The position numbers were made by a program, and so were the translations under genes. The notes beneath the pieces were generated by a model. That model worked only from the letters and a program-made list of their open reading frames with translations, had not been told where the DNA came from and searched no databases. Shown here one piece after another: positions 24,224-50,050 of a DNA stretch of 52,387 nt. The stretch is from Acidimicrobiaceae bacterium (GTDB lineage: Bacteria; Actinomycetota; Acidimicrobiia; Acidimicrobiales; RAAP-2): contig DAHUZT010000008.1 of the NCBI GenBank assembly GCA_027315005.1, positions 1 to 52,387 on the forward strand, written 5' to 3'. The stretch's first letter is position 1. Each line of letters begins with the position of its first letter.

Positions 24224-25171
24224 TCAGGCGGAGGCCAGCTCCTTCCACAGTGCCCGATAGCTCGGATAGGTCAAGGAATCCGTGACGTAGCCCGCCCGCA
24301 CCAGTTCGGCGTGGAAGGCCGGAAGGTTCCGGAAGGGGATTCCCATGTCGACATGGTGGGCTAGATGCCACCCGGTGTTGTAGGGCACCAACCAGAACCG
24401 GGCGGGCAGGGACTGGCGCACGTTGTGGGTGGTGACGCGACGATCGTCACCGGCCTCGAGCCCGCCGTGCTCGGCGATGGCGCGGAGACGGTTCAGCACC
24501 CGCCACTGGGTCATCCACGGCAACCACCACAAGAGCGGGTAGATCCACCATCTTCCGGTTGTCGTCCACATCAGAGCCCACAGCGCAACCTGCACGGACA
24601 GGATGGACGTAGCCACACGCCTGGCCGCCGGCTTCCCCAACGCGGTGAACAGCGGAGTGAAGTTCTTCCATCCCGAGATGCCCACCGCGTCGCGCAACAG
24701 ACGGCGGCGAAGGGTCCGCCGATCGCACCGGTAGCCTCCGTAGAAGGCCAGATCGGGTTCACGCGGGCCGAACTCCTTCTTGTGGTGGGCGAAATGACCG
24801 CGCCGGTAGATGGAGATCGGGGTCCATGCCGGGTAAGCGATGAGCCACGTTCCCACCCAGTCGTTGACCCGCTTGTCGGAGAAGAGGAGCTTGTGGGCCG
24901 ATTCGTGCATGAGGATGCCGAACCGGGCGTACAGAGGCCCCATCAAGAGAAAGGCGGCCAGATAGCCGAACGGGTCATCGAGCCTGACCACCCCACCGAT
25001 GACGACCGCGACCCACAGCCACAGTGCGGCCACGCTCAGGGCGTTGCGCCTGTCGTCGATCCGACGAAGTGAGTGGCGCAGGTCGGGGCGGGCCATCCCG
25101 TTGTCGAGGAGCCGATCGGTGGGGAGCACGTCCGGACGGGCAGAGGTGGCGGGCACCATGGTCGCGGCCAT
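24224..25171 (-). CDS. Membrane fatty acid desaturase
   Basis: Di-iron membrane desaturase/hydroxylase-like enzyme of 315 aa. The three histidine boxes are HESAH (89-93), HFAHH (126-130) and HLAHH (about 272-276). They sit among four hydrophobic segments (about 47-65, 69-87, 190-210 and adjacent). It presumably introduces a double bond into lipid acyl chains, using outside electron donors. ATG 25171 has no ribosome-binding site but lies six bases after a TAATAT -10 box, which points to a leaderless transcript; ATG 25159 is another choice. It converges on pgi and is divergent from the PaaX-like gene. Confidence 0.9.
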   Translation of the reverse strand: MAATMVPATSARPDVLPTDRLLDNGMARPDLRHSLRRIDDRRNALSVAALWLWVAVVIGGVVRLDDPFGYLAAFLLMGPLYARFGILMHESAHKLLFSDKRVNDWVGTWLIAYPAWTPISIYRRGHFAHHKKEFGPREPDLAFYGGYRCDRRTLRRRLLRDAVGISGWKNFTPLFTALGKPAARRVATSILSVQVALWALMWTTTGRWWIYPLLWWLPWMTQWRVLNRLRAIAEHGGLEAGDDRRVTTHNVRQSLPARFWLVPYNTGWHLAHHVDMGIPFRNLPAFHAELVRAGYVTDSLTYPSYRALWKELASA

Positions 25172-26059: not shown

Positions 26060-26125
26060 GACCCGAGCGATCGCATCCGCGGCGGTCGAGCAATGGTGAG
26101 CAGCGCTGCCGAGGATGGAGGTGCG

Positions 26126-27007
26126 ATGGACAAGGAAGCGGATGATTCCCCCCCACCGGTGGCCGATCTCGCGCTCCCGCTGGCCGGACGGGTGGCCCTC
26201 GTCACCGGAGGTGCGCGCGGGCAGGGTCGCAGCCATGCCGTGGGGCTGGCCCGACTCGGGGCGGACATCGCCATCTGCGATCTCGGGCGGAACCTGCAGA
26301 CGGTGAGCTACCCGCTCGCCAATCCGGCAGATCTGGACGAGACCACCCGACAGATCGGAACCATCGGACGGCGCTGCGAGAGCGCGCTGGTCGACGTGCG
26401 ATCCCTAAGCGATGTCCTCACCTTCGTCGACCGGGTTGTCGGTGAATTCGGCTCGGTCGACATCCTGGTGGCCAATGCCGGGGTCTCGACTCTCGGCTCG
26501 ATCTGCACCATGGGCGCCGAGGAGTGGTCCGTGGGCATCGACACCAACCTGACCGGTGTGTTCAACGCCATGCGGGCCGTCTCCCCGCACATGCGTCGCC
26601 GCCGGTGGGGGCGGATCGTGGGCATCTCCTCCATGATGGGCCGATCGTCGAACCCGGGTATCCCTGCCTACGTGGCCTCCAAGTGGGGCATCATCGGACT
26701 GGTCAAGTCGGTGGCGCAGGAGCTGGCTCCCTTCGAGGTCACGGTCAACGCCATCGCTCCCGGCAACGTGTCGACGGACATGATCCACAACGACCAGCTC
26801 TACCGGCTGATGCGTCCGGACCTCGCGGCGCCGACCGCCGACGATGTCGCCCCAGCCATGACCGCCCTCCATGTCCAGTCGGTCCCCTGGATCGAGCCGG
26901 AGGAGGTCACCGCGGCCGTGGCCTTCCTGTGCTCCGACGGAGCCCGTCACATCACCGGAGCGGTGCTCGACGTCTCGGCCGGTGCTTCTGCCCGCTTCAC
27001 CGGTTGA
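26126..27007 (+). CDS. SDR-family oxidoreductase, mycofactocin-coupled type
   Basis: Classical Rossmann-fold dehydrogenase (293 aa). Cofactor motif TGGARGQGRSHAVGLARLGADIAICDL (about residues 27-53), NAG, catalytic Ser in VGISSMMG, and YVASK (Tyr about 183). The GARGQGRSHA variant and the extra ~20 residues after the second strand are typical of the mycofactocin-coupled SDR subfamily, which keeps NAD bound and passes electrons to mycofactocin. No mycofactocin genes lie in this window. ATG 26126 is chosen for GGAGGT five bases upstream; the ORF extends to 26093. It follows the PaaX-like gene and converges on the sulfatase. Confidence 0.85.
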   Translation: MDKEADDSPPPVADLALPLAGRVALVTGGARGQGRSHAVGLARLGADIAICDLGRNLQTVSYPLANPADLDETTRQIGTIGRRCESALVDVRSLSDVLTFVDRVVGEFGSVDILVANAGVSTLGSICTMGAEEWSVGIDTNLTGVFNAMRAVSPHMRRRRWGRIVGISSMMGRSSNPGIPAYVASKWGIIGLVKSVAQELAPFEVTVNAIAPGNVSTDMIHNDQLYRLMRPDLAAPTADDVAPAMTALHVQSVPWIEPEEVTAAVAFLCSDGARHITGAVLDVSAGASARFTG

Positions 27008-27050: not shown

Positions 27051-29345
27051 CTATTGGCGGGCAAAGACCGCTCGCTCGACCGAGCGGGCCGAGCCATCGC
27101 CGTCCCCGGCCTGGGTGACGGTCACGTCGAGCCGTTCGAAGGTCCCGGTGAACGGGAAGTGACCGTCGTACCGCTCGCTCACCGGTGAGCCGTGGTCGTA
27201 TCCGATGCTCGGGCCGACACTCGAGGGCATGGTCATGACGAACGGCAGGGCGAGCTCACCGGCGGAAGTCCCGTCGACGAGGAGGGTGACCGCACCGCTC
27301 TTGCCCTTCCGCCGGAGCCTGACGCCGACGCTCGACCGACCGACCGGAACCCCGGTGGTCGACTCGATGACCAGGTGGTCCCCGAAGCAGTTGTAGTCGA
27401 ACACCAGACGGTCCCCCTGGACGAACAGGCTCAATCCCGAGTTCTCCGTACCCGACGCGTACAGGACGCCCTGGTCATCAGCCCCGCGCTCGATGGTCGC
27501 CACCATGTCGAACCCGCGCCCCCCGAGTGCCGGAGCGGCCTGGGATGGTAGCGGGGAGAGCGGAGGGTGGTAGGTGTAGGTCCGCTCGGGCACGTGTGGG
27601 GAGTGATCGTGGTAGCGGGTGAAGAACAGCTCGATGGTCCGTTCGTCGAGCGGGAGGACGTCGTTCGCCTCGGCTTCGCTCCACCACTGTTCGACCAGCT
27701 CCGCCAGGAGCTCGGGGTGCTCATCGGCCAGGTCGTGGCACTCGGAGCGGTCCTCGGCGAGATGGTAGAGCTCCCAGCTGTCGTCGTCGAAGGGGACGCC
27801 GGTCACGTGCCGGGTGACCGCCTTCCAACCGTCCCGGTAGATGGCGCGATGCCCCATCATCTCGTAGTACTGGACCTCCTTGCGTGACGGTGCTGCGGGA
27901 TGATCGAAGCTGTAGGCGAGGGAGACACCGGTGACCGGTAGCTGCTCGAGGCCGCGGAAGACGGCCGGCGGCTCGACGCCGAGCACCTCGTAGATGGTGG
28001 GCACGATGTCGTTTACGTGATGGAACTGATCCCGCAGGCCGCCGCCGCCGATCGTCGCCGGCCAGTGGACGATCAGCGGAACGTGGACGCCCCCTTCATG
28101 GGTGTTCTGCTTGTACCACTTGAACGGGGTGTTGCCGGCCTGTGCCCAACCCCACGGATAGTTGGCGTGGCTGTGCGGGCCCCCGATGTCGTCGATCCGC
28201 CCGACCGCCTCGTCCGGGGATTCGGAGACGAAGTTGAAGTACTTCATCTCATGGAGCACGCCGAAGGGCCCCCCCTCCTGGCTCGCCCCATTGTCCGACA
28301 GGAGGATGATCAGCGTGTCGTCGAGCTTGCCCAGGCGTGCGAGGTCGTCGACGAGACGGCCGATCTGGGCGTCGGTGTGCTCGAGGAAGGCGGCGAATGC
28401 TTCTTGGAGCCGGGCGGCCAGCCTGCGATGGTTGTCGGGGAGCAACTCCCACTCCTCGACACCAGGGTTGCGCGGGGCGAGCTCGGTGGTGGGGGGTAAC
28501 AAGCCCATCTGCAGCTGACGTTCGAACCAGCGTCGCCGTGCCGCATCCCATCCGTCGTCGAAGCGCCCCCGGTACCGGGCCAGGTAGTCCGGGGGCGCCT
28601 GGTGGGGAGCGTGCATGGCGGCGAAGGCCAGGTAGGTGAAGAAGGGCCGATCGGGACGGATGGAAACCGTGTCGTGGATGAACCCGATGGCATGGTCGAT
28701 CAGGTCCTCGCTCAGGTGGTACCCGTTCTCGGGATCGCCCGGTGGGTCGACCGAGTGGTTGTCGTAGATGAGCTCGGGATGGAACTGGTCCGTTTCGCCT
28801 TCGAGGAAGCCGTAGAACCGGTCGAAGCCGCGCTGGCACGGCCACTGGTCGTACGGGCCGGCCGCAGAGGCGTCGGTCATGGGACACTGATGCCACTTGC
28901 CCAGGCCGAACGTGGCGTATCCCTCCTCCCGGAGGATCTCGGCCACCGTGGCGGCGTGAGGGGTGATGCGCCCGCGCATGTGGGGGTAGCCACTGTCGAA
29001 GTTGGAGAGAGCCCTCATCCCCACGCTGTGGTGGTTCCGTCCGGTGAGGAGGGATGCCCGTGTCGGCGAGCACAGGGGGGTGACGTGGAAGTTCGTGTAG
29101 CGGAGTCCGCCGGCGGCCAGCCGGTCGATGTTGGGTGTGACCAGATCGGAGCCGTAGCAGCCGAGCTGGGAGAACCCGGTGTCGTCGAGGAGGATGAGCA
29201 AGATGTTGGGGGAGCCTTCGGCCGGCCGGGCGGCCTCGGGCCACCAGGGTTTCGACTCGGGCTCGGTACGCCCGATGACCCCTTCGAAGGGTTCGAGCCG
29301 ACACGCGGACTCGGTGGCTGAGGGGCGACCGGGCTGAATCGACAT
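27051..29345 (-). CDS. Arylsulfatase-type sulfatase (formylglycine-dependent)
   Basis: Type I sulfatase of 764 aa hydrolysing sulfate esters. Metal site LLDDTGFS (about residues 52-59) and the activation motif CSPTRASLLTG with Cys92, the residue converted to formylglycine; then GKWH and HAPH metal/substrate residues, LSDNG and HEGG. After the catalytic domain (to about residue 580) comes a ~170-residue all-beta C-terminal region (GFDMVATIERG to FTGTFERLDVTV) like a lectin/laminin-G fold. No signal peptide is visible, so it may be cytoplasmic. ATG 29345 directly precedes the conserved part; the upstream open frame is Arg/Gly-rich junk. The TetR gene lies 68 bp upstream on the same strand. Confidence 0.92.
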   Translation of the reverse strand: MSIQPGRPSATESACRLEPFEGVIGRTEPESKPWWPEAARPAEGSPNILLILLDDTGFSQLGCYGSDLVTPNIDRLAAGGLRYTNFHVTPLCSPTRASLLTGRNHHSVGMRALSNFDSGYPHMRGRITPHAATVAEILREEGYATFGLGKWHQCPMTDASAAGPYDQWPCQRGFDRFYGFLEGETDQFHPELIYDNHSVDPPGDPENGYHLSEDLIDHAIGFIHDTVSIRPDRPFFTYLAFAAMHAPHQAPPDYLARYRGRFDDGWDAARRRWFERQLQMGLLPPTTELAPRNPGVEEWELLPDNHRRLAARLQEAFAAFLEHTDAQIGRLVDDLARLGKLDDTLIILLSDNGASQEGGPFGVLHEMKYFNFVSESPDEAVGRIDDIGGPHSHANYPWGWAQAGNTPFKWYKQNTHEGGVHVPLIVHWPATIGGGGLRDQFHHVNDIVPTIYEVLGVEPPAVFRGLEQLPVTGVSLAYSFDHPAAPSRKEVQYYEMMGHRAIYRDGWKAVTRHVTGVPFDDDSWELYHLAEDRSECHDLADEHPELLAELVEQWWSEAEANDVLPLDERTIELFFTRYHDHSPHVPERTYTYHPPLSPLPSQAAPALGGRGFDMVATIERGADDQGVLYASGTENSGLSLFVQGDRLVFDYNCFGDHLVIESTTGVPVGRSSVGVRLRRKGKSGAVTLLVDGTSAGELALPFVMTMPSSVGPSIGYDHGSPVSERYDGHFPFTGTFERLDVTVTQAGDGDGSARSVERAVFARQ

Positions 29346-30013: not shown

Positions 30014-30030
30014 GGTACGGACTTTACTGA

Positions 30031-30048: not shown

Positions 30049-30065
30049 GCAGATAAGAGAACGGG

Positions 30066-32591: not shown

Positions 32592-33347
32592 TCAGGCGAG
32601 TGTGGCCCCGTCGACGAGGAGATCGGCACCGTTCATATGTGAAGCTTCGTCGGAGGCCACGAAGGCGATGGCGGCCGCGATGCCTTCAGGAGTCCCGAAT
32701 CCTCCCAGTGGGGTGACCCGACGGAGCAGCTTGGCGTTTGCTCCCTCGGGCAGGCGGAACTCCTTGGTGATCGGGGTATCGATGGCCCCGGGGCTCACAG
32801 AGTTGGCCCGCACGCCGGCCCCGGCGTACTCGACGGCGATGCTCCGGGTCAGTGCCAGCACCCCGCCTTTCGAGGCCACATAAGCCGCCGCCCATGGTTG
32901 GCCGCGGTGGGCGGCGGTCGACGCGAGGTTGACAATGGCGCCGCCGTCGACCGCGAGGTGGGGCAACGCTTGACGGCATACGAGGAACGTGCCGGTCAGG
33001 TTGACCGAGAGCACCCGGTTCCACTCGGCGAGGGTCACCTCGTGCGAATGGTCGAACGAGAGCACCCCGGCGGCATTCACCACGACGTCCAAGGCTCCGA
33101 GCTGCTCGGCGGCTCCGGTCACGAGTGAGGCCACCGCCTCCTCGCTGCTCACATCGGCGACCAGGGTGGCGATCCGCCCCTGACCCACCTCCGGCCCGAT
33201 CGCGAGTCCGGTCAACTGGTCGCCGTTTACGTCGGCGGCCACCACCGAGGCCCCCTCGGCGGCCAGCCGGACGGCCGTGGCCCGACCGATGCCCGAGGCC
33301 GCCCCCGTGACCAGTGCGTGCCGTCCGGCGAAGCGGTATGGGGCCAT
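32592..33347 (-). CDS. SDR-family oxidoreductase
   Basis: 251-aa classical SDR with TGAASGIGRATA (residues 13-24), VNAAG (NAG variant), the Ser in NLASTAA and YVASK (Tyr about 153). C-terminal SPGAIDTPITKEF and the ASHMNGADLLVDG end are typical of 3-oxoacyl-/hydroxysteroid-dehydrogenase-like members; substrate unknown. ATG 33347 directly precedes the fold; a GTG/ATG at 33389 would add 14 residues. It converges on the SnoaL-like gene at 32056-32550 and lies 244 bp downstream of another SnoaL-like gene on its own strand. Confidence 0.88.
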   Translation of the reverse strand: MAPYRFAGRHALVTGAASGIGRATAVRLAAEGASVVAADVNGDQLTGLAIGPEVGQGRIATLVADVSSEEAVASLVTGAAEQLGALDVVVNAAGVLSFDHSHEVTLAEWNRVLSVNLTGTFLVCRQALPHLAVDGGAIVNLASTAAHRGQPWAAAYVASKGGVLALTRSIAVEYAGAGVRANSVSPGAIDTPITKEFRLPEGANAKLLRRVTPLGGFGTPEGIAAAIAFVASDEASHMNGADLLVDGATLA

Positions 33348-33591
33348 TGCGAGACTGTAGGTCAGTGCCGATCCCGGTTCCGCAGGCACCGGGCACCCGG
33401 TGCCGGACGAAAGAGTCCGTCCGAACCGGGTACCTCGGCTGGGCCATCAGGAGTGGCCGGCTCCCGTCGATGCCCCGATCCGCCACCCGATGTCCCATCA
33501 GTATGACGGCGATGGGTCCCATTTGCAATCACGAATTGCAACCGTGTCGGCGACGTTGGCTCGGTCCGCACCCCTGGGACGACCGGTCGTC

Positions 33592-34107
33592 TCAGGTGAG
33601 GGTGCTCCAACCGGTTGCGGCCGGAGCGAAGAAGACGGTGGTGAGGTGCATGGAGTGGTGGAGCCAGATCCCGTCCTCCCGGAAGTACTCGTCGTCCTCG
33701 TAGCCGCACATCCACCGGGCCGTCCCCTCGGCCGTCGTACACGGGACCAGGAGGTCCCAGCGGGCGGAGGCCCGGTCACCGTCCACCGAGATCCGGGGTT
33801 TGACGAAGAGGTGGCGGGCGAAGGTCAGCGTCGGAGAGGCCAGCCGCTCGGCGATAGCGGCCCGGCCGGTCACGGCACCGAGGCCTGGCCCACCGTCCCA
33901 GGTGCCGTCCTCGGTGAACAGCGCCGCAACCTGGTGGGCGAGGCTCCACAGCCGAGCGGACTCGACCACCGATCCCCGGTCGAACCGCTCATCGACCAAC
34001 TCGCCGTAGCGGGCCTTCAACTCGTGGATGGCGAGCACGCTCTCGGCGGCGTCGAGGCGACGGTGCAAGGCCGCCACGTCGGCGGCCACGTCTTCGATGG
34101 TGGGCAC
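33592..34107 (-). CDS. SnoaL-like (NTF2-fold) protein
   Basis: 171-aa protein of the SnoaL-like type: IHELKARYGELVDERFDRGS, a helix-rich N-terminus, LFTEDGTWDGGPGLGAVTGRAAIAERL, HLFVKPRISVDGDRASARWDLLVPC and EDDEYFREDGIWLHHSMHLTTVFF. The N-terminal ~25 residues are coiled (VAADVAALHRRLDAAESVLAI). It is only distantly similar to the SnoaL-like protein at 32056-32550. Probably an accessory isomerase/hydratase of the surrounding catabolic genes; the substrate is unknown. Confidence 0.75.
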   Translation of the reverse strand: MPTIEDVAADVAALHRRLDAAESVLAIHELKARYGELVDERFDRGSVVESARLWSLAHQVAALFTEDGTWDGGPGLGAVTGRAAIAERLASPTLTFARHLFVKPRISVDGDRASARWDLLVPCTTAEGTARWMCGYEDDEYFREDGIWLHHSMHLTTVFFAPAATGWSTLT

Positions 34108-37583: not shown

Positions 37584-37617
37584 AAGCGCAGGACGTCCGA
37601 GGTCGTACACTGGTGCC

Positions 37618-38108: not shown

Positions 38109-39755
38109 TCAGGGGTCGATCAGGACTCCGGGGTTGAGCAGGGCGCTTGGATCGACGACGTGCTTGGCCGCTCGGAGCTGTGCGGCGAACAGGTCCGGGC
38201 GTTGGCGGTCGTAGCCCGGCCGGTGGTCCCGTCCTACGGCGTGATGGTGGGTGACGGTTCCGCCCCCGTTCTCGATGGCCTCGGTCACGGCCGACTTGAT
38301 CTCGGCCCACTGGCCGAGCCGGTCCGTGGGGTGCCCGGTGGCGAGCACCGTGAAGTAGGGGGCGGCGCCGTCCGGGTAGATGTGGGTCAACCGGCACGAG
38401 ATCACGGCGGGCCAAGCTCCGGCGGAGCGCAGTGCATCTGCACACGCGGCACGGATTTCGGCCACGAAGATGTCGAACCGATCCCAGGTGATTGCGGTCT
38501 CGAAGGTCTCGGAGACGAGTCCCATCCGGACGAGCTCGTCCCGGAAGTAGGGCGCCCTGAGGAATGAGGCTCGCCATCGCGTGGATGCATCAGGGTGTTC
38601 CCCGATCCCCGGTCCGTCCGGATCCGCTCCTCTGGCTCCTCCGGCGTCGGCCGTGGACGGAGCCGCCTCCATCGGCGAGGGAATCGTTCCGCCGGACTCT
38701 CCGACGATCTCGGCCGCCCGAGCGAGCGCCTCGTCGACCGGGTGATCCGCCGACTCGAACCCGAGGAGGACCAGATGGGCGCTGCCGTCGCCCGAGCCGC
38801 TGATCAGGGCTTCGGTGGCGTCCAGAAGCCGGCAGTTGGCCGGCCAGAGTCCTGACTGGCCGAGCTTCCGGACGGCGGTGACCGCGCTGTCGAAGGTGGA
38901 GAAGCGGCCCACCCCCGATGCCCGCCATCGGGGTCGGGCCTGCAGTCGCACCCATGCCTCGGTGATGATCCCGAGGATGCCTTCTGAGCCGAGGAGCAGC
39001 CGGTCGGGGGAGGGGCCGGCGCCCGAGCCTGGCAGCCGCCGGGTTGCGGTGATCCCGGCGGGCGTGACGGCCCGGATCGATTCGACGGCGTCGTCGATGT
39101 GGGTGGCCAGCGTGGCGAAGTGACCGGCCGAGCGGGTGGCCAGCCAGCCTCCCAGCGAGGAGAACTCGAAGCTCTGCGGGAAGTGACGGAGGGTGAGCCC
39201 GTACGGCCGGAGCTGATCTTCGAGGGCGGGTCCGAGGGTGCCGGCTTCGATTCGCGCCGCCCGCGACAGATGGTCGACCTCGAGGACCCGAGAGAGATGG
39301 ACGAGGTCGCAGCTCATCACCGGTCGGTCGTCGTCGGCGGGGACCTCCACCCCACCTACCACCGAGGAGCCACCACCGTAGGGGATGACTATGGCACCGA
39401 CCTCCGATGCCCACTCGAGAAGCGCCTCCACACCCGACTCGTCCGGAGGGCGCACGACGCAGTCGGGTGGACGCCGCCAGTTCCGTTCGAGGGCCCGGAC
39501 CAGGTCACGGAACGATTTGCCGTAGGTGTGGCCCGCACGGTCCTCGGGGTCTGTGCTGAACCATCCGGCCATGCTGGACGGTGGGGTGAGACGAGGCGAG
39601 GGCAGTTCGATCTCGTCGCGTGTGGGGGCCGGAACGGGCCGGAGGTCGGAGTCCCCGACGAGCGGGGCCACCCTGGCGGCCAGCGCTCTCTGCTCGGCCG
39701 CCGAGAGGGCGTCTTCCTCGCGCCCCCAGCCCCAGAACCGTCGGCCCGTTGCCAC
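38109..39755 (-). CDS. FAD-binding oxidase, alkyldihydroxyacetonephosphate-synthase-like
   Basis: 548-aa flavoprotein of the VAO/PCMH family. FAD-binding part: PYGGGSSVVGGVE (about residues 126-138), IEAGTLGPALEDQL, FPQSFEFSSLGGWLATRSAGHFATLATHIDD and LLLGSEGILGIITEAWVRL. The C-terminal cap includes the His-rich motif THHHAVGRDH near residue 507, seen in alkylglycerone-phosphate synthases, which replace an acyl by an alkyl chain in ether-lipid synthesis. Whether it makes ether lipids is unproven; D-lactate/glycolate oxidase-like activity is the alternative. GTG 39755. It lies 29 bp downstream of the AidB-like gene stop on the same strand. Confidence 0.85.
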   Translation of the reverse strand: MATGRRFWGWGREEDALSAAEQRALAARVAPLVGDSDLRPVPAPTRDEIELPSPRLTPPSSMAGWFSTDPEDRAGHTYGKSFRDLVRALERNWRRPPDCVVRPPDESGVEALLEWASEVGAIVIPYGGGSSVVGGVEVPADDDRPVMSCDLVHLSRVLEVDHLSRAARIEAGTLGPALEDQLRPYGLTLRHFPQSFEFSSLGGWLATRSAGHFATLATHIDDAVESIRAVTPAGITATRRLPGSGAGPSPDRLLLGSEGILGIITEAWVRLQARPRWRASGVGRFSTFDSAVTAVRKLGQSGLWPANCRLLDATEALISGSGDGSAHLVLLGFESADHPVDEALARAAEIVGESGGTIPSPMEAAPSTADAGGARGADPDGPGIGEHPDASTRWRASFLRAPYFRDELVRMGLVSETFETAITWDRFDIFVAEIRAACADALRSAGAWPAVISCRLTHIYPDGAAPYFTVLATGHPTDRLGQWAEIKSAVTEAIENGGGTVTHHHAVGRDHRPGYDRQRPDLFAAQLRAAKHVVDPSALLNPGVLIDP

Positions 39756-41424: not shown

Positions 41425-41728
41425 GCGGACTCCTTGGTCGTCCGGTTGGTCGTTCGGCTGTCAGGGCCGAACCCTACCGTCGGGTGCAGCTCGGATGCCG
41501 CCGGTCGGTGGCTTGGCACCCGCCCGATATCGTTGGAACCGAACCATCGGCCTGATCTCAGGCACTCCTCTCAACGGTCTCGGTCGGTGGCTTCGGTGGC
41601 TAACGACGCCGTTCGGGCGGTGATTTACGAAATTCATAGCATCGGTTGATGGGCTCTTTAACCCCAGGGTGTCGAATAGTGCACGAGTGGTGCCGTTTCA
41701 GGCACAGCGAACAGGAAGGCAGACAGAC
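41425..41728. other. 304-bp divergent intergenic region
   Basis: Separates the AidB-like gene and the HtrA-like gene. Around 41620-41690 it becomes AT-richer (AAATTCATAGCATCGGTTGATGGG vicinity), suggesting the protease promoter; exact boxes cannot be assigned. No RNA or ORF of note. Confidence 0.35.
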
Positions 41729-43420
41729 GTGAGCGACTCCTGGCAGTCTCCGGAGGACCAAGAATCTCGACCAGGCGGAGAAGAGCTGCCCAAAGAGGGT
41801 GCAGCCGACCTCCCGTCAGGAGCTCGTCCACCGGCACGATCCGCGGGATACGGATCGATCCCGCTGCCCCCGGTGGGATCTCCGCCCGCTTGGCAACCTG
41901 TTTCGGAACATGCCGGTTCGGGGTATTACCCGGCCGTTCCCCACCCAGGTCAGCATCCGACCGGCCAGTACCCGGCGACCGGCCAGTACCCGGCGGAGCA
42001 GCGTGGCGAGCCGGCCCCGGTCGCGGGCGGTTGGACCGGCTCACCGGGCTGGCAAGGCGGACCCGGATCGTACGGGCAGCGGTGGGACCCCCCAGGACCG
42101 CCGTCGTATGGAGGCTGGCCGTACCAGGAGTTCAGCAGGCCGGATCCCGAGAGTGTGCAGCGGACCTCCCACGCAAAGCGCAACGCCGTCTTGCTGTCCG
42201 TGGCGACGCTGTCCGTCGTGGCCGCGGTGCTCCTCGGTGCAGGGCTGGGTCACCTGGTGTGGCCAGGCTCGTCGACGAATGCGAGCGTGAGCACTCCCAC
42301 CGGTCCGGCATCGGGCGGCTCATCTGGAAACGGGTTCTCTCCGTTCGGTGGGGGCTCGAGCGGTTCGACCGGCAATTCGGCCACCGGCGCCGGCGCACCG
42401 TCTGACATCTCGGCGATCGCCTCCAAGGTCAATCCGGGACTGGTCGACATCAACACCAATCTGAGCTACCAGCAGGAACAGGCCGCCGGAACGGGCATGG
42501 TGCTCACCCCGGGCGGCGAAGTGCTCACCAACAACCACGTGATCGACGGAGCAACCAGCATCAGCGTCACCGATGTCGGTAACGGCAAGACGTACTCGGC
42601 GACCGTGGTCGGCTACGACCGCACGCAGGACGTTGCCGTGATCCAGTTGGTCGGGGCCAGCGGGCTGCAGACGGTGACGACGGCCGGCGGTTCGCCTTCG
42701 GTCGGCCAGGCCGTCGTCGGTGTCGGCAACGCCGGCGGAACGGGAGGCACTCCGAGCACCGCTGGAGGATCGATCACCGCACTGGACCAGTCGATCACGG
42801 CGAGCGACAACAACGGCGCCAACGCGGAGCATCTGACCGGCCTCATCGAGGACAATGTCGGCATCCAACCAGGTGACTCGGGCGGACCGCTGGTCAATAC
42901 CTCCTCCCAGGTCCTCGGGATGGACACCGCCGCATCGCAGGGAACACTCGGAACGTCTGCGACCCAGGCCTACGCCATACCCATTACCACGGCGCTGTCG
43001 ATCACCAAGCAGATCGAGGCGGGTAGAGCTACCTCGTTGGTGCACATCGGTCCGACCGCCTTCATCGGAGTGAGCGTGGATTCGCCGGGTCAGGCGAGCA
43101 CCGGCGCCGGTAGCGGCGGGTTTGGCTTCGGAAGCGGTTTCGGTGGCGGCACCGGGAGCGGCTCGAACAGCGGTGGTGGTTCGACGACTTCCGGAGCGGC
43201 CATCGTCGCGGTGGTCTCCGGCTCGCCCGCAAGCAGGGCTGGATTGGTCCCTGGGGACGTGATCACCGGATTCAACGGCACGCCGGTGACCGACCCCAAC
43301 CAGCTGACTCAGCTCCTCGAACCCCACCATCCGGGCAATTCTGTTCTGTTGCAATGGACCGATACGTCCGGCCAGACCCAAACGGGGACGGTTGTCCTGA
43401 CCAACGGCCCTCCCGCCTGA
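41729..43420 (+). CDS. HtrA/DegP-like membrane-anchored serine protease with PDZ domain
   Basis: 563-aa envelope protease. A cytoplasmic Pro/Gly/Tyr-rich N-terminus (about 1-150, with a doubled TGQYPA unit) is followed by one transmembrane helix (about 155-177, AVLLSVATLSVVAAVLLGAGLGHLVW), a Ser/Gly linker, and a trypsin-like domain with triad His270 (TNNHVID), Asp301 (TQDVAVI) and Ser384 (GDSGGP). The C-terminal PDZ domain is interrupted by a roughly 30-residue Gly/Ser insertion between FIGVSVDSPG and AAIVAVVSGSPASRAGLVPGDVI. Typical of actinobacterial HtrA/PepD proteins for protein quality control outside the membrane. GTG 41729 has AGGAAGG upstream; 41669 is a possible longer start. Confidence 0.93.
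   Translation: MSDSWQSPEDQESRPGGEELPKEGAADLPSGARPPARSAGYGSIPLPPVGSPPAWQPVSEHAGSGYYPAVPHPGQHPTGQYPATGQYPAEQRGEPAPVAGGWTGSPGWQGGPGSYGQRWDPPGPPSYGGWPYQEFSRPDPESVQRTSHAKRNAVLLSVATLSVVAAVLLGAGLGHLVWPGSSTNASVSTPTGPASGGSSGNGFSPFGGGSSGSTGNSATGAGAPSDISAIASKVNPGLVDINTNLSYQQEQAAGTGMVLTPGGEVLTNNHVIDGATSISVTDVGNGKTYSATVVGYDRTQDVAVIQLVGASGLQTVTTAGGSPSVGQAVVGVGNAGGTGGTPSTAGGSITALDQSITASDNNGANAEHLTGLIEDNVGIQPGDSGGPLVNTSSQVLGMDTAASQGTLGTSATQAYAIPITTALSITKQIEAGRATSLVHIGPTAFIGVSVDSPGQASTGAGSGGFGFGSGFGGGTGSGSNSGGGSTTSGAAIVAVVSGSPASRAGLVPGDVITGFNGTPVTDPNQLTQLLEPHHPGNSVLLQWTDTSGQTQTGTVVLTNGPPA
41960..41995 (+). repeat. 18-bp tandem duplication in the HtrA-like gene
   Basis: ACCGGCCAGTACCCGGCG occurs twice in tandem (41960-41977, 41978-41995), encoding two TGQYPA units of the cytoplasmic tail. 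Confidence 0.9.
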
Positions 43421-43460: not shown

Positions 43461-43511
43461 CCAGCAGAGGTACAGGGCCTGTCCACATGGGCAGGCCCTG
43501 TACCTCGCTGG
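43461..43511. terminator. Long near-perfect hairpin after the HtrA-like gene
   Basis: Outer arms CCAGC/GCTGG and inner 18-bp arms (43467-43484 and 43489-43506; one G-T pair) around an ACAT loop, with one bulged A: a 23-bp stem in 51 nt. It lies 40 bp after the HtrA stop in a 260-bp gap before a same-strand gene. No T-run, so it may be a terminator of high-GC type, or a mobile palindromic repeat. Confidence 0.65.
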
Positions 43512-43680: not shown

Positions 43681-44496
43681 GTGCCAGGTCATTCGCTACG
43701 ATCTCGCCCACGGCTGCCCCGCGACGACCTCCGGTCGCTGCTGTTGCGCACCGGCCGTGACCTGGTCGTCGATGAGGGTCTGGATGTGGACGGTAAGACC
43801 TTTACGTTCAAGCAGGTGTTCGATCGACTTGAGTCGGACACTGGCCTGCGATTGACCAACGCATCGGTCATCAGGAGGATCTGGGAGGATCAGGCCGATT
43901 TCCAGGCTGACGTACTCGCTGCCGCCGCAGCCGGTGAGGGAGGGACCGACCTCCGGCAGTCGGTTGACATCCTCCGTTCTCGGCTGGAGGCCCTCGACGT
44001 GTCGTCGCCTGACGCGAGAGCCACGGCCCTCCGGGAATCGTGCCGCCTGACCGGTCTCCTTGCACTGGACTTTCTGCAACAGTCGCAGAACTGGGGACTG
44101 TGGATCGCGGTGTGGGCCACCACCGAGCTTCGCGTCGGTGAATTCCAGCGCAAGCCCGGTTTCGATCGTATCCATGCGGCTCTTTCCGAGAGCTACGAGC
44201 GTGCCACCAACCTGTGGGACGAGGCGCTGGAAGGCATTCTCGGACACTTGGGGATGCGCGTACGAACTCCTCTGACCGTGCGCCAGTTCGCCGTCGCCAC
44301 CGGTGCTCTGCTGGAGGGAAGCGCACTACGCCGGCGTCTGGACGACAGCATGACCGGTATCATCCGTTCCACCGGTCCAGACGGCGCAGGGGAGGAGTGG
44401 TCCATCGTCGGTATCGGGCTGGAGGCGCTCGTCGACCGGTTCTTCGAGCAGGATCCGAACTGGGTCCAAAGGGGCCATCTCCCGGAACTGGATTGA
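43681..44496 (+). CDS. Non-canonical TetR-like regulator
   Basis: 271-aa protein. The N-terminal helical domain reads LRSLLLRTGRDLVVDEGL, a TFKQVFDRLESDTGLRL stretch and TNASVIRRIWEDQADFQADVL: the layout of a TetR helix-turn-helix, but the usual TLYYYF recognition signature is replaced by SVIRRIW and the loop before it is longer. The remaining ~190 residues are all-alpha, like a TetR ligand domain. A second copy of the same type is at 49235-50050 (about 30-35% similar by eye). GTG 43681 is preceded by GAGGAG. The DCC-protein gene starts 15 bp after its stop, so it likely heads an operon. Confidence 0.72.
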   Translation: MPGHSLRSRPRLPRDDLRSLLLRTGRDLVVDEGLDVDGKTFTFKQVFDRLESDTGLRLTNASVIRRIWEDQADFQADVLAAAAAGEGGTDLRQSVDILRSRLEALDVSSPDARATALRESCRLTGLLALDFLQQSQNWGLWIAVWATTELRVGEFQRKPGFDRIHAALSESYERATNLWDEALEGILGHLGMRVRTPLTVRQFAVATGALLEGSALRRRLDDSMTGIIRSTGPDGAGEEWSIVGIGLEALVDRFFEQDPNWVQRGHLPELD

Positions 44497-44510
44497 AGGG
44501 GGGAAGGACC

Positions 44511-44906
44511 ATGTCTGTCGGAGCCGGCCCGGTTCTGGTGTTCGACGGGGACTGTGGGTTCTGTACGACCTGCGCCCGATGGGTGGAAGAGCGCTTTCAA
44601 GTTGGTACGGCTCGAGTCATCGCCTGGCAGTCCCTCGGCGCCGAAGGGTGCTCGGCGCTCGGCGTCGAGACAGATCAGCTACGGGCTTCCGTCTGGTGGG
44701 TCGAGAGAGGTTCCATTGGCTGCCGGTGGGCCGGCCATCGTGCCGTCGGTCACGCCCTCATGGCCACCACGAACCCGGGGCTTCGGATGCTCGGCCGAAC
44801 CATTCTGGTGCCCCCGTTCTCATGGATGGCCGCAGCCGTTTATCCGTTGGTGGCCCGGTTCCGTCACCGCCTACCCGGAGGAACCCCGGCGTGTCGGGAC
44901 GGTTGA
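44511..44906 (+). CDS. DCC-family (DUF393) thiol-disulfide oxidoreductase-like protein
   Basis: 131-aa protein with the family signature DGDCGFCTTCARW (about residues 11-23), whose D-x-D-C-x-x-C motif names the DCC family; a possible redox-active Cys pair is therefore present. Further SVWWVERG and a hydrophobic C-terminal part (ILVPPFSWMAAAVYPLVARFRHRLPGG) fit the family. Function is not established; members are often found with membrane or redox genes. ATG 44511 follows GGGGGAAGG. It lies between the TetR-like gene and the permease. Confidence 0.85.
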   Translation: MSVGAGPVLVFDGDCGFCTTCARWVEERFQVGTARVIAWQSLGAEGCSALGVETDQLRASVWWVERGSIGCRWAGHRAVGHALMATTNPGLRMLGRTILVPPFSWMAAAVYPLVARFRHRLPGGTPACRDG

Positions 44907-44915
44907 GGTGCCGCT

Positions 44916-44963
44916 CGCACTAGTGCGATCCTATCGTAGTTGCACTACTATCGCACTAGTGCG
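44916..44963. promoter_or_regulatory. Composite palindromic operator upstream of the APC permease
   Basis: Two identical 12-bp perfect palindromes CGCACTAGTGCG (44916-44927 and 44952-44963), 36 bp apart, flank a central 13-bp palindrome GTAGT-TGC-ACTAC (44936-44948). The outer repeats extend to 14 bp as an inverted pair (with AT on the inner side). The AT-rich core probably includes the promoter. Confidence 0.75.
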
Positions 44964-45009
44964 GGAATTGCCTCTCGCACCGACCCGGTACAAGTGGCGA
45001 GGAGCGCAG

Positions 45010-46437
45010 GTGACGGCAGTCGGGCTTCGGAGCGCCCAATCCGAGGACGGTTCCCGTCTCGAGCAGACGCTGCGCCTCCGAGACCTGGTTCCGATGTCGA
45101 TTTCGAGCGTCGGTCCCATGTTCTCGGTGGCCGCCACCGGGGGGGTGATGGCAGCTCAGGCGGGCTGGTGGACGCTCCCGGCCATCGGCCTGTTGGCTGT
45201 CCCCTTCGTCATCTCCAGCTTCGTGTTCCGTCTCCTCAACCACCATTTTCCACATTCGGGTGCGTCGTATCACTGGTCGGCACGGATCATCGGGAGGAGC
45301 GCATCCCGGTATCAGGCATGGATCCTCATCCTGGCCTACTTCCTTTCGATCCCTCCCATCGCCATCCCGGCTGGGTCCTACACCTTGGCGCTGGTCGCCC
45401 CTCACTACGACGCACCGCCTGTCGTCCGACTCGGAGCGACCATGTTCTGGATTGGCTTCGCCGCGGTTCCCCTCCTGGCAGGGGCGCGTCCCACGGCCCG
45501 TATCACCCGGGCCTTCTTCGCCATCGAGATGCTCTCGTTGGCGGCTCTCGGTGTCGTTGGAGCACTGAGCTGGCACCGTCTGGCCGTACCGATCCGCTTC
45601 GGTCCGCCTCCGATCGGCGGTATCCTCATCGTCGCGGTGGTGGCTGTCACGATCCTCGACGGATGGGAGATCGACAGCTATGCGGCAGAGGAGTCACGCA
45701 GACCCCGTTCCCAACCGGGAATCGGGGGGATCATCGGAGCGATCGGCGCGCTCGTGTTCTACGCGATCCTGTACCCGCTCATGCTGGGAGAGACCCCGCT
45801 GGGCTCCCTGGCCAACTCGGTCGACCCGTTGGCGGTGTGGTCACATCGCCTCCTTCCCGGGGCACCGTGGTTGATGCTCATCCCGGTTCTGCTGTCGACT
45901 GCGGGCGGCCTGTGGCTCACCAGTTATATCCTGACCAGAGCCATGTACGCCATGGGACGGGAGCAACTGGTCCCGGCGGTCTTCGGGAAGCTCAACCATC
46001 ATCGTGTTCCTCATGTTGCCATCACTGTGACTCTGGGAGCGGCCCTGGCCGTCGTGGCTGCGCAGCTGTTCATCTCGTCGCTCAGTTCGTTCTTCGTTCT
46101 GGTGCTGTCAGCGGCCGGGTTCTTCCTTCTGGCAGAATTCTTCATCGACTCACTCACCGCGGGCGTATTCCTCACCGTCGGGCACCGCAAGATGCCGGAC
46201 GTGCAACTTCACCGCCACGGCCATCGTTTGCTCTTGGTGGGATCACTGTTCTCCACAGCGGTCATGGGTGCCCTGCTGGTCGGCTTCTTCCTCGTCGGTC
46301 CGCACGCAATCGGTGGCGGAGTCGACTGGATCTTCGGCGTCCTCTTGGTCTTGGGATTGGTCTTTGCATGGCTGACGAGGAAGCGAGGGGCTGCTGCCTT
46401 CAGATTTGCGGGTGACGATGTCACCGTAGAGGGCTGA
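45010..46437 (+). CDS. APC-superfamily amino acid permease
   Basis: 475-aa transporter with about 12 membrane segments. Start region RLRDLVPMSISSVGPMFSVAATGGVMAAQAGW carries the G-rich first helix of the amino acid-polyamine-organocation family; ILDGWEIDSYAAEESRRPRSQ is the conserved E-E loop after helix 6. Substrate cannot be assigned; proton-coupled amino acid or amine uptake is likely. GTG 45010 is chosen because GAGGAGCG lies just upstream (44999-45006); upstream open frame includes the palindromic operator and is not coding. The gene overlaps, on the opposite strand, the open frame of a small membrane protein (to 46209). Confidence 0.88.
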   Translation: MTAVGLRSAQSEDGSRLEQTLRLRDLVPMSISSVGPMFSVAATGGVMAAQAGWWTLPAIGLLAVPFVISSFVFRLLNHHFPHSGASYHWSARIIGRSASRYQAWILILAYFLSIPPIAIPAGSYTLALVAPHYDAPPVVRLGATMFWIGFAAVPLLAGARPTARITRAFFAIEMLSLAALGVVGALSWHRLAVPIRFGPPPIGGILIVAVVAVTILDGWEIDSYAAEESRRPRSQPGIGGIIGAIGALVFYAILYPLMLGETPLGSLANSVDPLAVWSHRLLPGAPWLMLIPVLLSTAGGLWLTSYILTRAMYAMGREQLVPAVFGKLNHHRVPHVAITVTLGAALAVVAAQLFISSLSSFFVLVLSAAGFFLLAEFFIDSLTAGVFLTVGHRKMPDVQLHRHGHRLLLVGSLFSTAVMGALLVGFFLVGPHAIGGGVDWIFGVLLVLGLVFAWLTRKRGAAAFRFAGDDVTVEG

Positions 46438-46946
46438 GGGGCCTCAGGGGCTGAGGGGATTCGCCCTGCTGTCAGCCCGACGGAGCCGTCGGAATCGTAG
46501 CGGAGTCGTCGGCCCGGCTGCCAGCGTGCCACCGAGAAGCCGAGCAGCAATGGGATGTCGAAGGCGAACAGTACCAGCATCGCGGTGAGTAACCAGAGCT
46601 GATTCGCCGGTGTGCGGTCGTAGATGAAGACGAACTCCAAAATCCCTGCGATCGCGCAATATGCGAGAAGCGCCCACCCAGTGACCTGGAAGAAACTGTC
46701 CCAGGCGAAGTCGCTCACCCGAGCGAGGAGGGTGACATTGACCACGAGGACCGCTGCGGCGAAGGCGACCAGAACCAGCGGGGGTAGCAGCGTGACGGTC
46801 CGACCGTAGCTCGATGCCATGTAGATGCCGCCGACGACGATCGCCGCCAAGGTGACGGCGGCCAGGCGTGCGACCGGAGGGAGGTTTGCCTGCCTCCGGT
46901 CGGCCTCGTCGAGTTCCGGGCGAGCCTCACCGCCGGGGCCGTTCAT
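46209..46946 (-). CDS. Four-helix membrane protein of unknown function
   Basis: No family recognised. From ATG 46946 (ATGA overlap with the preceding gene) the product has four hydrophobic helices (about residues 19-40, 45-68, 78-103 and 112-135), a short loop, then VARWQPGRRLRYDSDGS. The open frame runs on for ~75 further basic, low-complexity residues antisense to the end of the permease gene. If one frameshift occurs near 46500, the gene would stop at 46444, just clear of the permease; I cannot decide which. Translationally coupled with the membrane gene upstream, so the two products may form a complex. Confidence 0.5.
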   Translation of the reverse strand: MNGPGGEARPELDEADRRQANLPPVARLAAVTLAAIVVGGIYMASSYGRTVTLLPPLVLVAFAAAVLVVNVTLLARVSDFAWDSFFQVTGWALLAYCAIAGILEFVFIYDRTPANQLWLLTAMLVLFAFDIPLLLGFSVARWQPGRRLRYDSDGSVGLTAGRIPSAPEAPQPSTVTSSPANLKAAAPRFLVSHAKTNPKTKRTPKIQSTPPPIACGPTRKKPTSRAPMTAVENSDPTKSKRWPWR

Positions 46947-47587
46947 CTGCTGGCCAGGAAGGTCATGATGACAATGGTGGCGATCTGCATGACGCCGGTG
47001 ATCCCGGCCGTGTAGATGAACACTCGCATCAGGCGGCCTATCCGTGCGCCGTTGGGACGCGGCTTCTTCAACTCGAAGAGCACGGCGAGGTTGGCGGGCT
47101 CGAGAAGTCCGAGAGCGATCACCGTCATGATCCCGACGATCACATAAGAGGCGACCAACCAATTGTGATGGGGATAGGTCGCATTCAGGTTTCCCAGGTG
47201 GTGCGCCAGCTGGAAGCCGGCACCGAGCGTCATCGCCACCAGTGTGGGCATGATGAGAATCATCTTCGGCATGAAGCGGACGGTGAATTCGGTGCGTGCT
47301 TGTACGGAGAGCCTTCCGAGTATTGGGCCGATGGCCAATCCGACGAAGAGATCGATGCTGGTCCACAGACCGCCTCCAGCAACGTGGAAGAAGGTCAGCC
47401 CCCACAATGAGTTGGAGGCAATGGCGGCGACAAGACCGGCCACGAGAACGGCGACGATGGGCAGTCCTCGAATGGGAATGATCGAGAATTCAGGAACGGT
47501 GACTGGACCGGAACCATCGGCCTGGTCCCGGACAGCCTCGTGGACCGGAACTCGTGCCGCCGTGCCGACTTCGAAGGCTTCGGTCAT
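46943..47587 (-). CDS. Five-helix membrane protein with conserved-looking His residues
   Basis: 214-aa integral membrane protein: five predicted helices (about residues 42-64, 66-90, 106-128, 143-165, 190-210). His residues at the membrane face (FFHVAGGGLW, LAHHLGN, HHNW) are reminiscent of DUF2269/CopD-like haem or copper proteins, but this is only a resemblance. ATG 47587 has GGGGGAGGAC immediately upstream. It is coupled by ATGA to the four-helix gene and is divergent from a beta-propeller lipoprotein gene. Confidence 0.6.
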   Translation of the reverse strand: MTEAFEVGTAARVPVHEAVRDQADGSGPVTVPEFSIIPIRGLPIVAVLVAGLVAAIASNSLWGLTFFHVAGGGLWTSIDLFVGLAIGPILGRLSVQARTEFTVRFMPKMILIMPTLVAMTLGAGFQLAHHLGNLNATYPHHNWLVASYVIVGIMTVIALGLLEPANLAVLFELKKPRPNGARIGRLMRVFIYTAGITGVMQIATIVIMTFLASR

Positions 47588-47860
47588 GTCCTCCCCCATA
47601 CCGAGTCCGCATGGAGACGATACCGTGAAAACGTCACGCGTGCGGGCGGGGTCATGGTGCGCGAACGAGCAATCCGATGCCGCCAGGCCGATGCCCGGCG
47701 CAGTGTGGGTCGCGCGAAGGTGTTTTGGGTCATGCGAAAGCCGCCCCCGATGGTCCCACAAGCAGATTGCTCCGAGCCGGGAAGCATCGAGGGTGAACGA
47801 GGTGATACGTCGGTCGCCGGTGCCCCCTGTCACGGCCGACGGAACAAGGGAGACACGACG
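47588..47860. promoter_or_regulatory. Divergent intergenic region
   Basis: Between the membrane pair (minus) and the propeller lipoprotein (plus). It contains CACGCGTG, a perfect 8-bp palindrome near 47636; no confident promoter was found. Confidence 0.3.
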
Positions 47861-49162
47861 ATGGCAGGTCGATCTGCACGTGACACCGCAGGCGGTCGCA
47901 ATCCGGTGACGACCAGACATCAGTGGCTGAAGGGAGGGTTGGTCACCCTGGTCCTCCTCCTCGCTGCCTGCTCGCGCGCACAGGCGACACCACGCCCCAG
48001 GCATGCCAGTCCCTCCAGCGAGGCCACGGCTCCTTCGAGCAGTGCCGTTGTCGGGTCAGTACCCGGAACGCCGGCCTGGCTGGCGACTCTCGAGCGGAAG
48101 GCGGCCGACAGCCCGAGCTATCTGCAGCCCGGCTCGAACCCGTCGGCTCTGCCCGGACCGGTGCTGATCGCCGATCGCAACAACTCCCGGCTCCTGCTCG
48201 TCGATCCGAAGGGTCAGATCCTCTGGCAGTTCCCGTCCGGAGCGACGGCACATCCCGGCAACTTCAGTGCCCCAGACGACGCCTTCTTCGGTCCGAACGG
48301 GAACGAGATCATTGCCACCGAAGAGTCCAACTTCACCATCAGCACCATCGCCCTCGGTCCCGGATCGGCAATGGGGAAGATCACCTGGACCTACGGCCAC
48401 CCGGGAGTAGCTGGCTCGGCCGCCGATTACCTGGACAATCCAGATGACGCCATGATGCTCCCCAACGGCGACGTGCTGGCGGCAGACATCAAGAACTGCC
48501 GGATCCTTCTCATTGCCCCCGGTACCCACGCGCCGGAGCACATCTACGGTGTGACCGACCCGTTCTGCTTCCACGATCCTCCTGTCCGATTCGGCAGCCC
48601 CAACGGCGTGTTCCCCATGACGAACGGTGACTATCTGGTCACCGAGATCAACGGGAACTGGGTCGACGAGATGAACCTGTCCGGTCAGATCCTCTGGTCG
48701 ACGCACCCTCCCGGTGTCAGTTACCCCTCAGACACGAACGAGGTGCGTCCGGGCGTCTTCCTGACCGCCGACTACTCCAACCCCGGTCAGGTCGAAATGT
48801 TCAACCAGCTCGGCAAGCTCCTCTGGCGCTATCGCCCGACCGGAGCACAGTCCCTCGACCGTCCCTCGCTCGCCCTTCCTCTTCCCAATGGTGACGTGCT
48901 GATCAACGACGACTGGAATCACCGCGTCATCGTGGTCGACCCGGCCACCAATCAGATCGTCTGGCAGTACGGTCATACCGGTGTCCCGGGCTCAGCCCCC
49001 GGCTACCTGGACAAACCTGACGGCGTCGACCTGGCCCCTCCCTACTCGCTGCTGGTGACCCACGCAGCGACCATGGGTCTTCCACCAGCCGGTCTGAGCC
49101 CACCCCCTTCCAGCCTCGGAGCCGCGGCCGGATCGGCGTCAGCCTCTGGGGTCGCGCCGTAG
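47861..49162 (+). CDS. Lipoprotein with PQQ/NHL-type beta-propeller
   Basis: 433-aa exported lipoprotein. The signal has the lipobox LLLAAC (Cys about residue 34), then a Pro/Ser/Thr linker. The mature part repeats a blade pattern of the type PNGDVLAADIKNCRILLI, LLVDPKGQILWQF, TNGDYLVTEINGNWVDEMNLSGQILWS, GQVEMFNQLGKLLWRYRP and NGDVLINDDWNHRVIVVDPATNQIVWQYGH: NHL/PQQ-like blades with a recurrent I-L/V-W-x-Y/F end. Known proteins of this shape bind ligands or scaffold complexes. ATG 47861 follows AAGGGAG. The frame could extend to 47540. Putative envelope partner of the divergent membrane pair. Confidence 0.8.
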   Translation: MAGRSARDTAGGRNPVTTRHQWLKGGLVTLVLLLAACSRAQATPRPRHASPSSEATAPSSSAVVGSVPGTPAWLATLERKAADSPSYLQPGSNPSALPGPVLIADRNNSRLLLVDPKGQILWQFPSGATAHPGNFSAPDDAFFGPNGNEIIATEESNFTISTIALGPGSAMGKITWTYGHPGVAGSAADYLDNPDDAMMLPNGDVLAADIKNCRILLIAPGTHAPEHIYGVTDPFCFHDPPVRFGSPNGVFPMTNGDYLVTEINGNWVDEMNLSGQILWSTHPPGVSYPSDTNEVRPGVFLTADYSNPGQVEMFNQLGKLLWRYRPTGAQSLDRPSLALPLPNGDVLINDDWNHRVIVVDPATNQIVWQYGHTGVPGSAPGYLDKPDGVDLAPPYSLLVTHAATMGLPPAGLSPPPSSLGAAAGSASASGVAP

Positions 49163-49234
49163 TGGGCGCGTGGCTCCTGCAGATCCGGGGTCTCACCCAG
49201 ACACCTTGGACAATGGGCAAATCGCCGCTTCTGT

Positions 49235-50050
49235 TCAACCGTCCGGAGGTGACGGGATCGGCTCGGCGAACACTTCAACCAGGGCGTCGATGCCGAGTCC
49301 GAGCAGTGTCCACTCCTTGACCAGCCCATCCGGTCCGCGCGCGGTGTGGACCGCGGGGAAGGCGTCCGGATCAACCTGCTTATGCAGGACGATTCCTTCG
49401 GCAAGGGCCGAAATGGCTGCGGCGGCGTCGCTCAGCGACATCCCGGGTCGGACACGCCAGCCGATGAGTTCGAGACCAAACCGATAGAGGTCGGCGTAGC
49501 GAGCGGTCAAAGTCTCGTTCGTGTGGCGGTGGGTCTCGACCAGCCGATCGTCAGGCGTCCCGGAACGACTGGCGGCAAGGTAGGTCGCCAGCGCCAACTG
49601 GAAGCTCAATGTCGAGTCGACCGCCACTTCCATGAAGGCGGCCGTCGAGACGCGGATCAGTTCCGCCAGGCTGGCCCGTCGAGTCGTCGGCGTGGAGAGG
49701 TCGACGAGGGGAAGAGCTTGGCTCACGGCCATCTCGGCAGCGCGGAATTCGCTGCCACCTTCATGGTCGACCACCTCGCGAAGGACGTCGACATGGAAGT
49801 CGTTCCTGTTCTTCCAGATGCGGTCGATCACGGCTGCGTTGGTGACCCGGACGCCGTGCACTCGCTCGACCTCCTCGAACACCCGGGCGAAGGTCACCCT
49901 CTCGGTGCCGAGTGTCAGACCTTCGGTGAGCAGGATCCGGGTGCCGGCGTCGAGCAAGAGGGTCCGCAGTTCGGATCGAGTACGCCTCCGGCCAGACCCG
50001 AGGGCGGGCTCGGGTCGGTCTTCATCGGCGTCGGCATGATCGAATTGCAT
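49235..50050 (-). CDS. Non-canonical TetR-like regulator (paralog)
   Basis: 271-aa all-alpha protein with the same architecture and length as the product of 43681-44496: LRTLLLDAGTRILLTEGL, VTFARVFEEVERVHGVRVTNAAVIDRIWKNRNDFHVDVL, then a ~190-residue helical C-terminal domain including GLGIDALVEVF (compare GIGLEALVDRF in the paralog). The shared TNAxVIxRIW recognition segment marks both as one unusual family. ATG 50050 is used. It converges on the propeller lipoprotein and is divergent from a methyltransferase gene. Confidence 0.72.
   Translation of the reverse strand: MQFDHADADEDRPEPALGSGRRRTRSELRTLLLDAGTRILLTEGLTLGTERVTFARVFEEVERVHGVRVTNAAVIDRIWKNRNDFHVDVLREVVDHEGGSEFRAAEMAVSQALPLVDLSTPTTRRASLAELIRVSTAAFMEVAVDSTLSFQLALATYLAASRSGTPDDRLVETHRHTNETLTARYADLYRFGLELIGWRVRPGMSLSDAAAAISALAEGIVLHKQVDPDAFPAVHTARGPDGLVKEWTLLGLGIDALVEVFAEPIPSPPDG

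Follow-up and report, generated by a model that had tools for sequence, protein, structure and literature searches.

Do two related regulator genes that lie 4.7 kb apart on one contig enclose a functional unit, or do they have separate histories and other targets? The question is raised by an entire contig of 52,387 bp, here called the window, from the 3.06-Mb assembly GCA_027315005.1 of an Acidimicrobiaceae bacterium from soil. A first-pass annotation had proposed that two regulators, here R1 and R2, are paralogous, non-canonical TetR-like proteins, perhaps a family outside TetR, and bracket a functional unit, for example one for small-molecule uptake and envelope redox. The paralogy, family, predicted fold, synteny and motif enrichment that we computed point to a different answer. 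As a whole, they are best explained if R1 and R2 are divergent TetR-fold repressors acting on phased hexamers, if R1 comes from a sulfatase locus that has been opened up in this genome, and if there is no R1–R2 module. We give this explanation a probability of about 0.58. The two genes are:

43681..44496, + strand: R1, predicted TetR-fold regulator of a divergent family (open reading frame, BLASTP, fold model, synteny)
49235..50050, - strand: R2, second member of the divergent family, from a different subclade than R1 (open reading frame, BLASTP, tree, fold model)

Both open reading frames (ORFs) are present as annotated and encode 271 amino acids (aa) each. The equal length may be chance, because the start codons are uncertain. 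The claimed paralogy is borne out by 31% identity over 261 columns, most of the chain (BLASTP, E 2e-32). The TNA-x-VI-x-RIW segment that had been noticed in both proteins is indeed there, and it is a signature of the whole family. A third paralogue, 43% identical to R1, lies on another contig (C11:2368-3096). A profile search added one weak, partial match on contig C87, and the full-length members in this genome are these three. A tRNA remnant before R1 was also considered, and a search found no tRNA in the window.

Few kinds of bacterial switch are as common as the TetR regulators, which annotation recognizes for the most part with a single model of the helix-turn-helix (HTH). We built a family profile, A1, from 39 members, leaving out 6 of 45 family ORFs that are cut, over-long or fragments (L034, L038, L059, L068, L070 and L071). 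None of the 39 matches Pfam TetR_N (PF00440) at E 0.1. The same model matches 26 places in the genome, and R1, R2 and the C11 paralogue are not among them. For R1 no Pfam family was found, and neither R1 nor R2 matches NCBIfam up to E 10. R2 matches TetR_C_6 at 22.1 bits, below the 27-bit cut-off; at E 0.1 this model matches 5 of the 39 members, and there is a single NCBIfam FasR match (E 0.084). A sequence search of the PDB with the regulators gave nothing below E 0.17, and a profile search gave one TetR at E 1.4. The profile search also returned weak TAL-repeat matches at E 0.001–0.005, which we judged to be repeat artefacts.

The AlphaFold2 models of R1 and R2 are confident. VIA-align places residues 9–258 of R1 and 20–264 of R2 on TetR-type regulators; Foldseek alone is weaker, with two matches at E 0.001 or better and a best E of 1e-4. 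In these predicted models both proteins have the overall TetR fold, with an N-terminal HTH and an all-helical C-terminal domain. Hence the view that the regulators stand outside TetR survives for sequence models and fails for the predicted fold. Sequence alone does not prove TetR kinship, because hhalign against the genome's own TetRs gave a probability of only 2–4% (17 of 22 extracted proteins were in the kept length range, and the set holds at least one wrong-strand reading, T168). This alignment has gaps of 4, 4, 2 and 1 residues in the HTH region, 11 extra residues that are indicative only, given the low probability. The HTH of the family is likely lengthened, at places that are uncertain. 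The recognition segment is nearly fixed as TNASVIGRVW, with TNAS in most of the 39 members, instead of the TLYYYF-like segment usual for TetR. In our judgement, paralogues with different targets would not usually share so constant a segment. R1 and R2 are single TetR modules, and two modules in one chain occur only in fused relatives. A search of open-licence papers found no description of the family, and within that literature the TetR-fold subfamily is undescribed.

How widely is the family spread? In a first survey, with R1 as query against 61 genomes, 18 had matches: all 14 genomes of the genus, 2 of 23 other genomes of the taxonomic family and 2 of 24 further genomes of the order; in one of these last two (G041) the match is weak and partial. 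Genomes of the genus carry two to five matches each, fragments included. Tandem copies are frequent, with three full copies in G003:C248 and pairs in G002, G004, G009 and G010. Across the order, the A1 profile matches 66 of 397 genomes; among the matches listed, at least 44 span 200 or more of 263 positions and the rest are partial. Up to six candidates were scored per genome, and both the copy numbers and the 44 long matches are lower bounds. The absence of the family outside the order rests on a sample of 396 genomes of the phylum, of which seven have profile matches, the two outside the order being partial C-terminal matches only. A search with a single peptide pattern found 32 loci, in records named Acidimicrobiaceae, Acidimicrobiales or "actinobacterium" metagenome-assembled genomes (MAGs). 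These 32 loci together with R1 and R2 form set A2; set A3 omits two of the 32 (L086 and L094).

In the tree, R2 falls with genes of G004 and G005 in a clade with 100/100 support, apart from R1, which has no supported position. R1 and R2 fall in different old subclades. The G004 and G005 relatives of R2 adjoin EngA, and R2 itself has no adjacent EngA in the window. Among 20 stretches examined for fusions, five ORFs of 537–559 aa carry two family domains (L136, L137, L138, L139 and L142), and four further ORFs in L140 and L141 have two partial family matches each. The fused double-domain relatives have no TetR_N match, and one of them, compared with the PDB by sequence, gave no significant match.

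Other double proteins turned up as well. Two ORFs of about 440 aa, in L149 and L150, match the profile in part and have two TetR_N stretches each; they are ordinary double TetRs. In L150, three ORFs of similar size match the profile in part. L149 and L150 represent a further group of double TetRs within the order.

The promoters of some family members have a sequence signal in common. A dyad, GCAA-N7-TTGC, occurs in 14 of 83 regions upstream of family genes, where base composition predicts 0.31; these regions are not independent, as they include orthologous promoters, several genomes of one genus and some second domains of fused genes. There are 15 sites in the 28 kb of the upstream set and 14 in 693 kb of neighborhood loci (overlapping, non-identical sets). 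Counted gene by gene, the dyad precedes 7 of 43 family genes and 5 of 468 other genes; the stretch searched could be longer for the family genes. Pairs of the hexamer TYGCRA are phased: 12 pairs lie 13 bp apart, five 26 bp and one 39 bp, and five pairs share all other distances to 45 bp. In L048, one promoter carries four hexamers in succession. A model trained on the genus together with its near relatives put 9 of 37 promoters that had been held out above the 95% null quantile and two above the 99% quantile, a moderate result. Genus-wide, a strict pattern found 12 sites in 7 of 14 genomes versus one for the reversed control. Five of the 12 precede a full-length family gene, two lie on either side of a family-gene fragment in G003, one is before the G012 sulfatase, one is 1.8 kb from the G013 sulfatase, two are elsewhere (G012:C27 and G012:C31), and one is in the window:

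33523..33541, no strand: family motif TTGCAA-N7-TTGCAA (strict pattern), between the short-chain dehydrogenase/reductase (SDR) gene at 32592-33389 and a SnoaL gene

This is the only strict match in the assembly. It scores 24.0, and the next best site in the window scores 9.5. The motif is a good candidate for the operator of the family. We also considered an overlap of the motif with a -35 box, given that TTGCAA is followed by CATACT at 17 bp before the window SDR, and rejected it, as a promoter scan was negative there and a similar scan of 16 upstream regions that carry the motif was negative too.

Several relatives keep one gene order: phosphoglucose isomerase, desaturase, SDR, sulfatase (-), a gap, the regulator (+), PfkB, YaaA (in some of them), HtrA and SnoaL (-). 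Tested against the window, the proteins of the relatives' loci found these counterparts, listed here with the SDR next to the motif:

22507..24135 (matched stretch), + strand: phosphoglucose isomerase of the conserved locus (80% identity)
24224..25171, - strand: fatty acid desaturase homologue of the conserved locus (71%; Pfam of a relative; start read by eye)
26093..27007, + strand: SDR of the conserved locus (69%)
27051..29294, - strand: sulfatase (PF00884), 74% identical to the sulfatase beside the G006 family member; the open frame runs to 29612
32592..33389, - strand: SDR with the motif in its upstream gap, not the SDR of the conserved locus (homology)
33592..34107, - strand: SnoaL-like protein (58–64% to SnoaL of the relatives' loci)
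38109..39755, - strand: oxidase linked to flavin adenine dinucleotide (FAD), 72% to one in the G007 sulfatase locus
41669..43420, + strand: HtrA-like trypsin/PDZ protein directly upstream of R1 (Pfam; homologue in the relatives' loci, 49%)

The window gave no match for PfkB or YaaA. The nearest relatives of R1 by identity sit in stretches with the conserved sulfatase (G006, 50%; G001, 47%). R1 is likely the positional counterpart of the sulfatase-locus regulator, and the counterparts found would go back to a single ancestral locus that has since been opened up and whose regulator would be R1. Of 11 sulfatase loci, 8 have a relaxed form of the motif no more than 2 kb from the start of the sulfatase; by an estimate from base frequencies, chance would give one such motif in about 20–25 kb.

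Two observations belong to these loci. A canonical TetR gene (29414-30484, - strand, TetR_N at 29816-29953) adjoins the sulfatase on the side of the motif site and may control the neighboring SDR or the sulfatase. In G007, only a 73-residue family piece (L069:9140-9367) lies between PfkB and the sulfatase, and the motif beside the piece is present.

DNA binding, repression, ligand control, the rearrangement and the reading of the site at 33523 by R1 are steps that we infer. R1 and R2 would work like ordinary TetR repressors, which a ligand releases. One dimer, or several side by side, would sit on TYGCRA hexamers every 13 bp and come off the DNA when a small metabolite fills the C-terminal pocket. 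The ancestral R1 locus would have been divergent, with the sulfatase on one side, the regulator and PfkB on the other and the motif between, and family members would repress the sulfatase and their own operon. Here the locus would have been opened up, leaving R1 14 kb from the sulfatase and behind HtrA, and the motif between an SDR gene and the conserved SnoaL gene. R2 would be a neighbor from another subclade. As a guess, the inducer could arise from the sulfatase/PfkB pathway and might be a sulfated sugar.

One could go further and propose a subfamily with its own mode of reading DNA. A lengthened HTH with a near-frozen recognition segment would read near-palindromic hexamers, locked at 13 bp and bound by rows of protein. 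One operator code would serve the two to five copies per genome and the fused doubles in a cross-wired network, in which sites without a regulator are served in trans by paralogues. We put this forward tentatively, as possible rather than probable.

Several findings make the repressor and sulfatase-locus explanation less certain. No motif was found upstream of R1 or R2, and the site in the window sits before an SDR gene; for R1 itself the regulatory inference is weaker for these two reasons. HtrA lies on the other side of R1 than in the relatives' loci, and R1 lacks a supported place in the tree. The 8 of 11 sulfatase loci are not independent, since four went into the definition of the motif and two were retrieved for carrying it. 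An independent count gives two of five: L062, from another genus, and L069 have the motif within 2 kb of the sulfatase start, and L033, L035 and the window do not. Most family members lack the motif too, and this would also suit an array that belongs to a different regulator, with family genes only among its targets. Sulfatase loci with the motif and no adjacent full-length member (L214, L217 and L069) also fit such an owner. But the motif is found again before members whose loci are not orthologous, and in further taxonomic families, as expected of self-regulation, and G007, G012 and G013 carry other family members. We consider a different owner rather unlikely.

It remains to ask what the genes between R1 and R2 are doing there. 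All of those claimed by the annotation are present, including the composite operator-like sequence before the permease:

44511..44906, + strand: DCC1-like thiol protein (PF04134; Pfam), 14 bp after R1
44916-44927 and 44952-44963, no strand: a pair of exact CGCACTAGTGCG palindromes ahead of the permease, at a distance of 36 bp (repeat scan)
45010..46437, + strand: amino-acid permease family protein (PF13520; Pfam), GTG start inferred
46209..46946, - strand: small membrane protein M1 (ORF without Pfam match)
46943..47587, - strand: small membrane protein M2 (ORF without Pfam match), paired with M1 in relatives
47861..49162, + strand: propeller lipoprotein (NHL above cut-off, PQQ_2 below)

R1, DCC and then the permease run on the + strand, the membrane pair on the -, the propeller on the + and R2 on the -, which suggests at least four transcription units. 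DCC is possibly co-transcribed with R1. We compared 40 neighborhoods of family members or pieces (L032–L071; 39 in other genomes and one on another contig here; some cut by contig ends), and tblastn at E 1e-6 found DCC, permease, M1, M2 and propeller in none of them. The ORF filter for these neighborhoods overlooked family members in L056 and L064 as well as DCC, M1 and M2 of the window; tblastn is independent of this filter. M2 has relatives in six other genomes of the genus (76–85%), and M1 is beside M2 in all six stretches fetched, none of which holds a family member. Relatives of DCC occur in eight other genomes of the genus, and no family member was found in any of the seven DCC neighborhoods fetched. 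The relatives of the permease within the genus are all distant, the best at 28% over long stretches and one 111-residue piece at 34%. The closest relative of the propeller, at 63%, is elsewhere in the same genome. The M1 frame itself runs about 230 bp antisense into the end of the permease gene (46209-46437); its match ends at residue 143–154 in five of six relatives and at 229 in one, and hence the M1 tail may be no real part of the protein.

Could R1 and R2 nevertheless jointly control these five genes as an uptake and envelope redox unit? That two of the genome's three full-length members lie so close together, and that so few base pairs separate R1 and DCC, would speak for it. Against it stand the 0 of 40 neighborhoods, the separate histories of the intervening genes, the different subclades of R1 and R2, and a family motif that nowhere scores over 9 among the intervening genes. 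The neighborhood comparison, which the annotation itself had named as a refuting test, largely refutes the joint unit, which we now consider very improbable; the grouping is positional, since the genes between have separate histories and the regulators different subclades, and the bracketing looks like coincidence.

A narrower proposal is that R1 (or R2) has changed its specificity and now represses the permease through an operator unique to that promoter. The two CGCACTAGTGCG palindromes, with a GTAGTTGCACTAC pseudo-palindrome between them, are the only two in the assembly (the reversed control pattern has one match), and R1 ends 420 bp before them. The region even holds the hexamers TTGCAC and TCGCAC, but 11 rather than 13 bp apart. 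The best score of the family-motif position weight matrix at 44916-44963 is 2.8, so the palindromes are not the family motif, and the recognition segment of R1 is near the family norm. The core GCACTAGTGC was found in none of the other loci compared and is hence without phylogenetic support, and another regulator may own the palindromes. Repression of the permease by R1 or R2 is in our view doubtful.

The explanation by divergent repressors on phased hexamers can be set beside known systems. With the TetR family, R1, R2 and their relatives share the predicted fold over most of the length and the divergent gene arrangement at the sulfatase locus; some members, though not R1 and R2, also have a palindromic candidate operator upstream. 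Mce3R of Mycobacterium tuberculosis is a double TetR family regulator that is said to be autoregulated and binds two non-palindromic 25-bp sites (PMC11667970). The fused doubles of the order resemble it; R1 and R2 differ in being single, and the family motif, a row of phased hexamers, differs from the sites described there. Mce3R is absent among the structure-alignment rows listed, which is no evidence against kinship. QacR binds a 28-bp palindrome as a tetramer (PMC4482099). More than one dimer on neighboring half-sites, as in operators of that type, would fit three to four hexamers in a row, although the family motif has a period of 13 bp and its hexamers are themselves nearly palindromic.

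What makes the locus of wider interest is a lineage-specific TetR branch that the standard HTH model misses. The branch comes with a candidate operator and, in Acidimicrobiales that we know here from MAGs, with the sulfatase and PfkB kinase genes as a candidate regulon. The locus also illustrates that nearby paralogues can suggest a module that comparison dissolves.

Three smaller features lie between the motif site and R1. An adjacent pair of PmbA/TldD-type metallopeptidase genes (34193-37119) separates the motif site from the FAD-linked oxidase. In the linker of a DUF2510 protein (37525-38061), GSGLPG is repeated five times. A 19-nt inverted repeat with 95% complementarity (43467-43506) closely follows the HtrA gene and is possibly the HtrA terminator.

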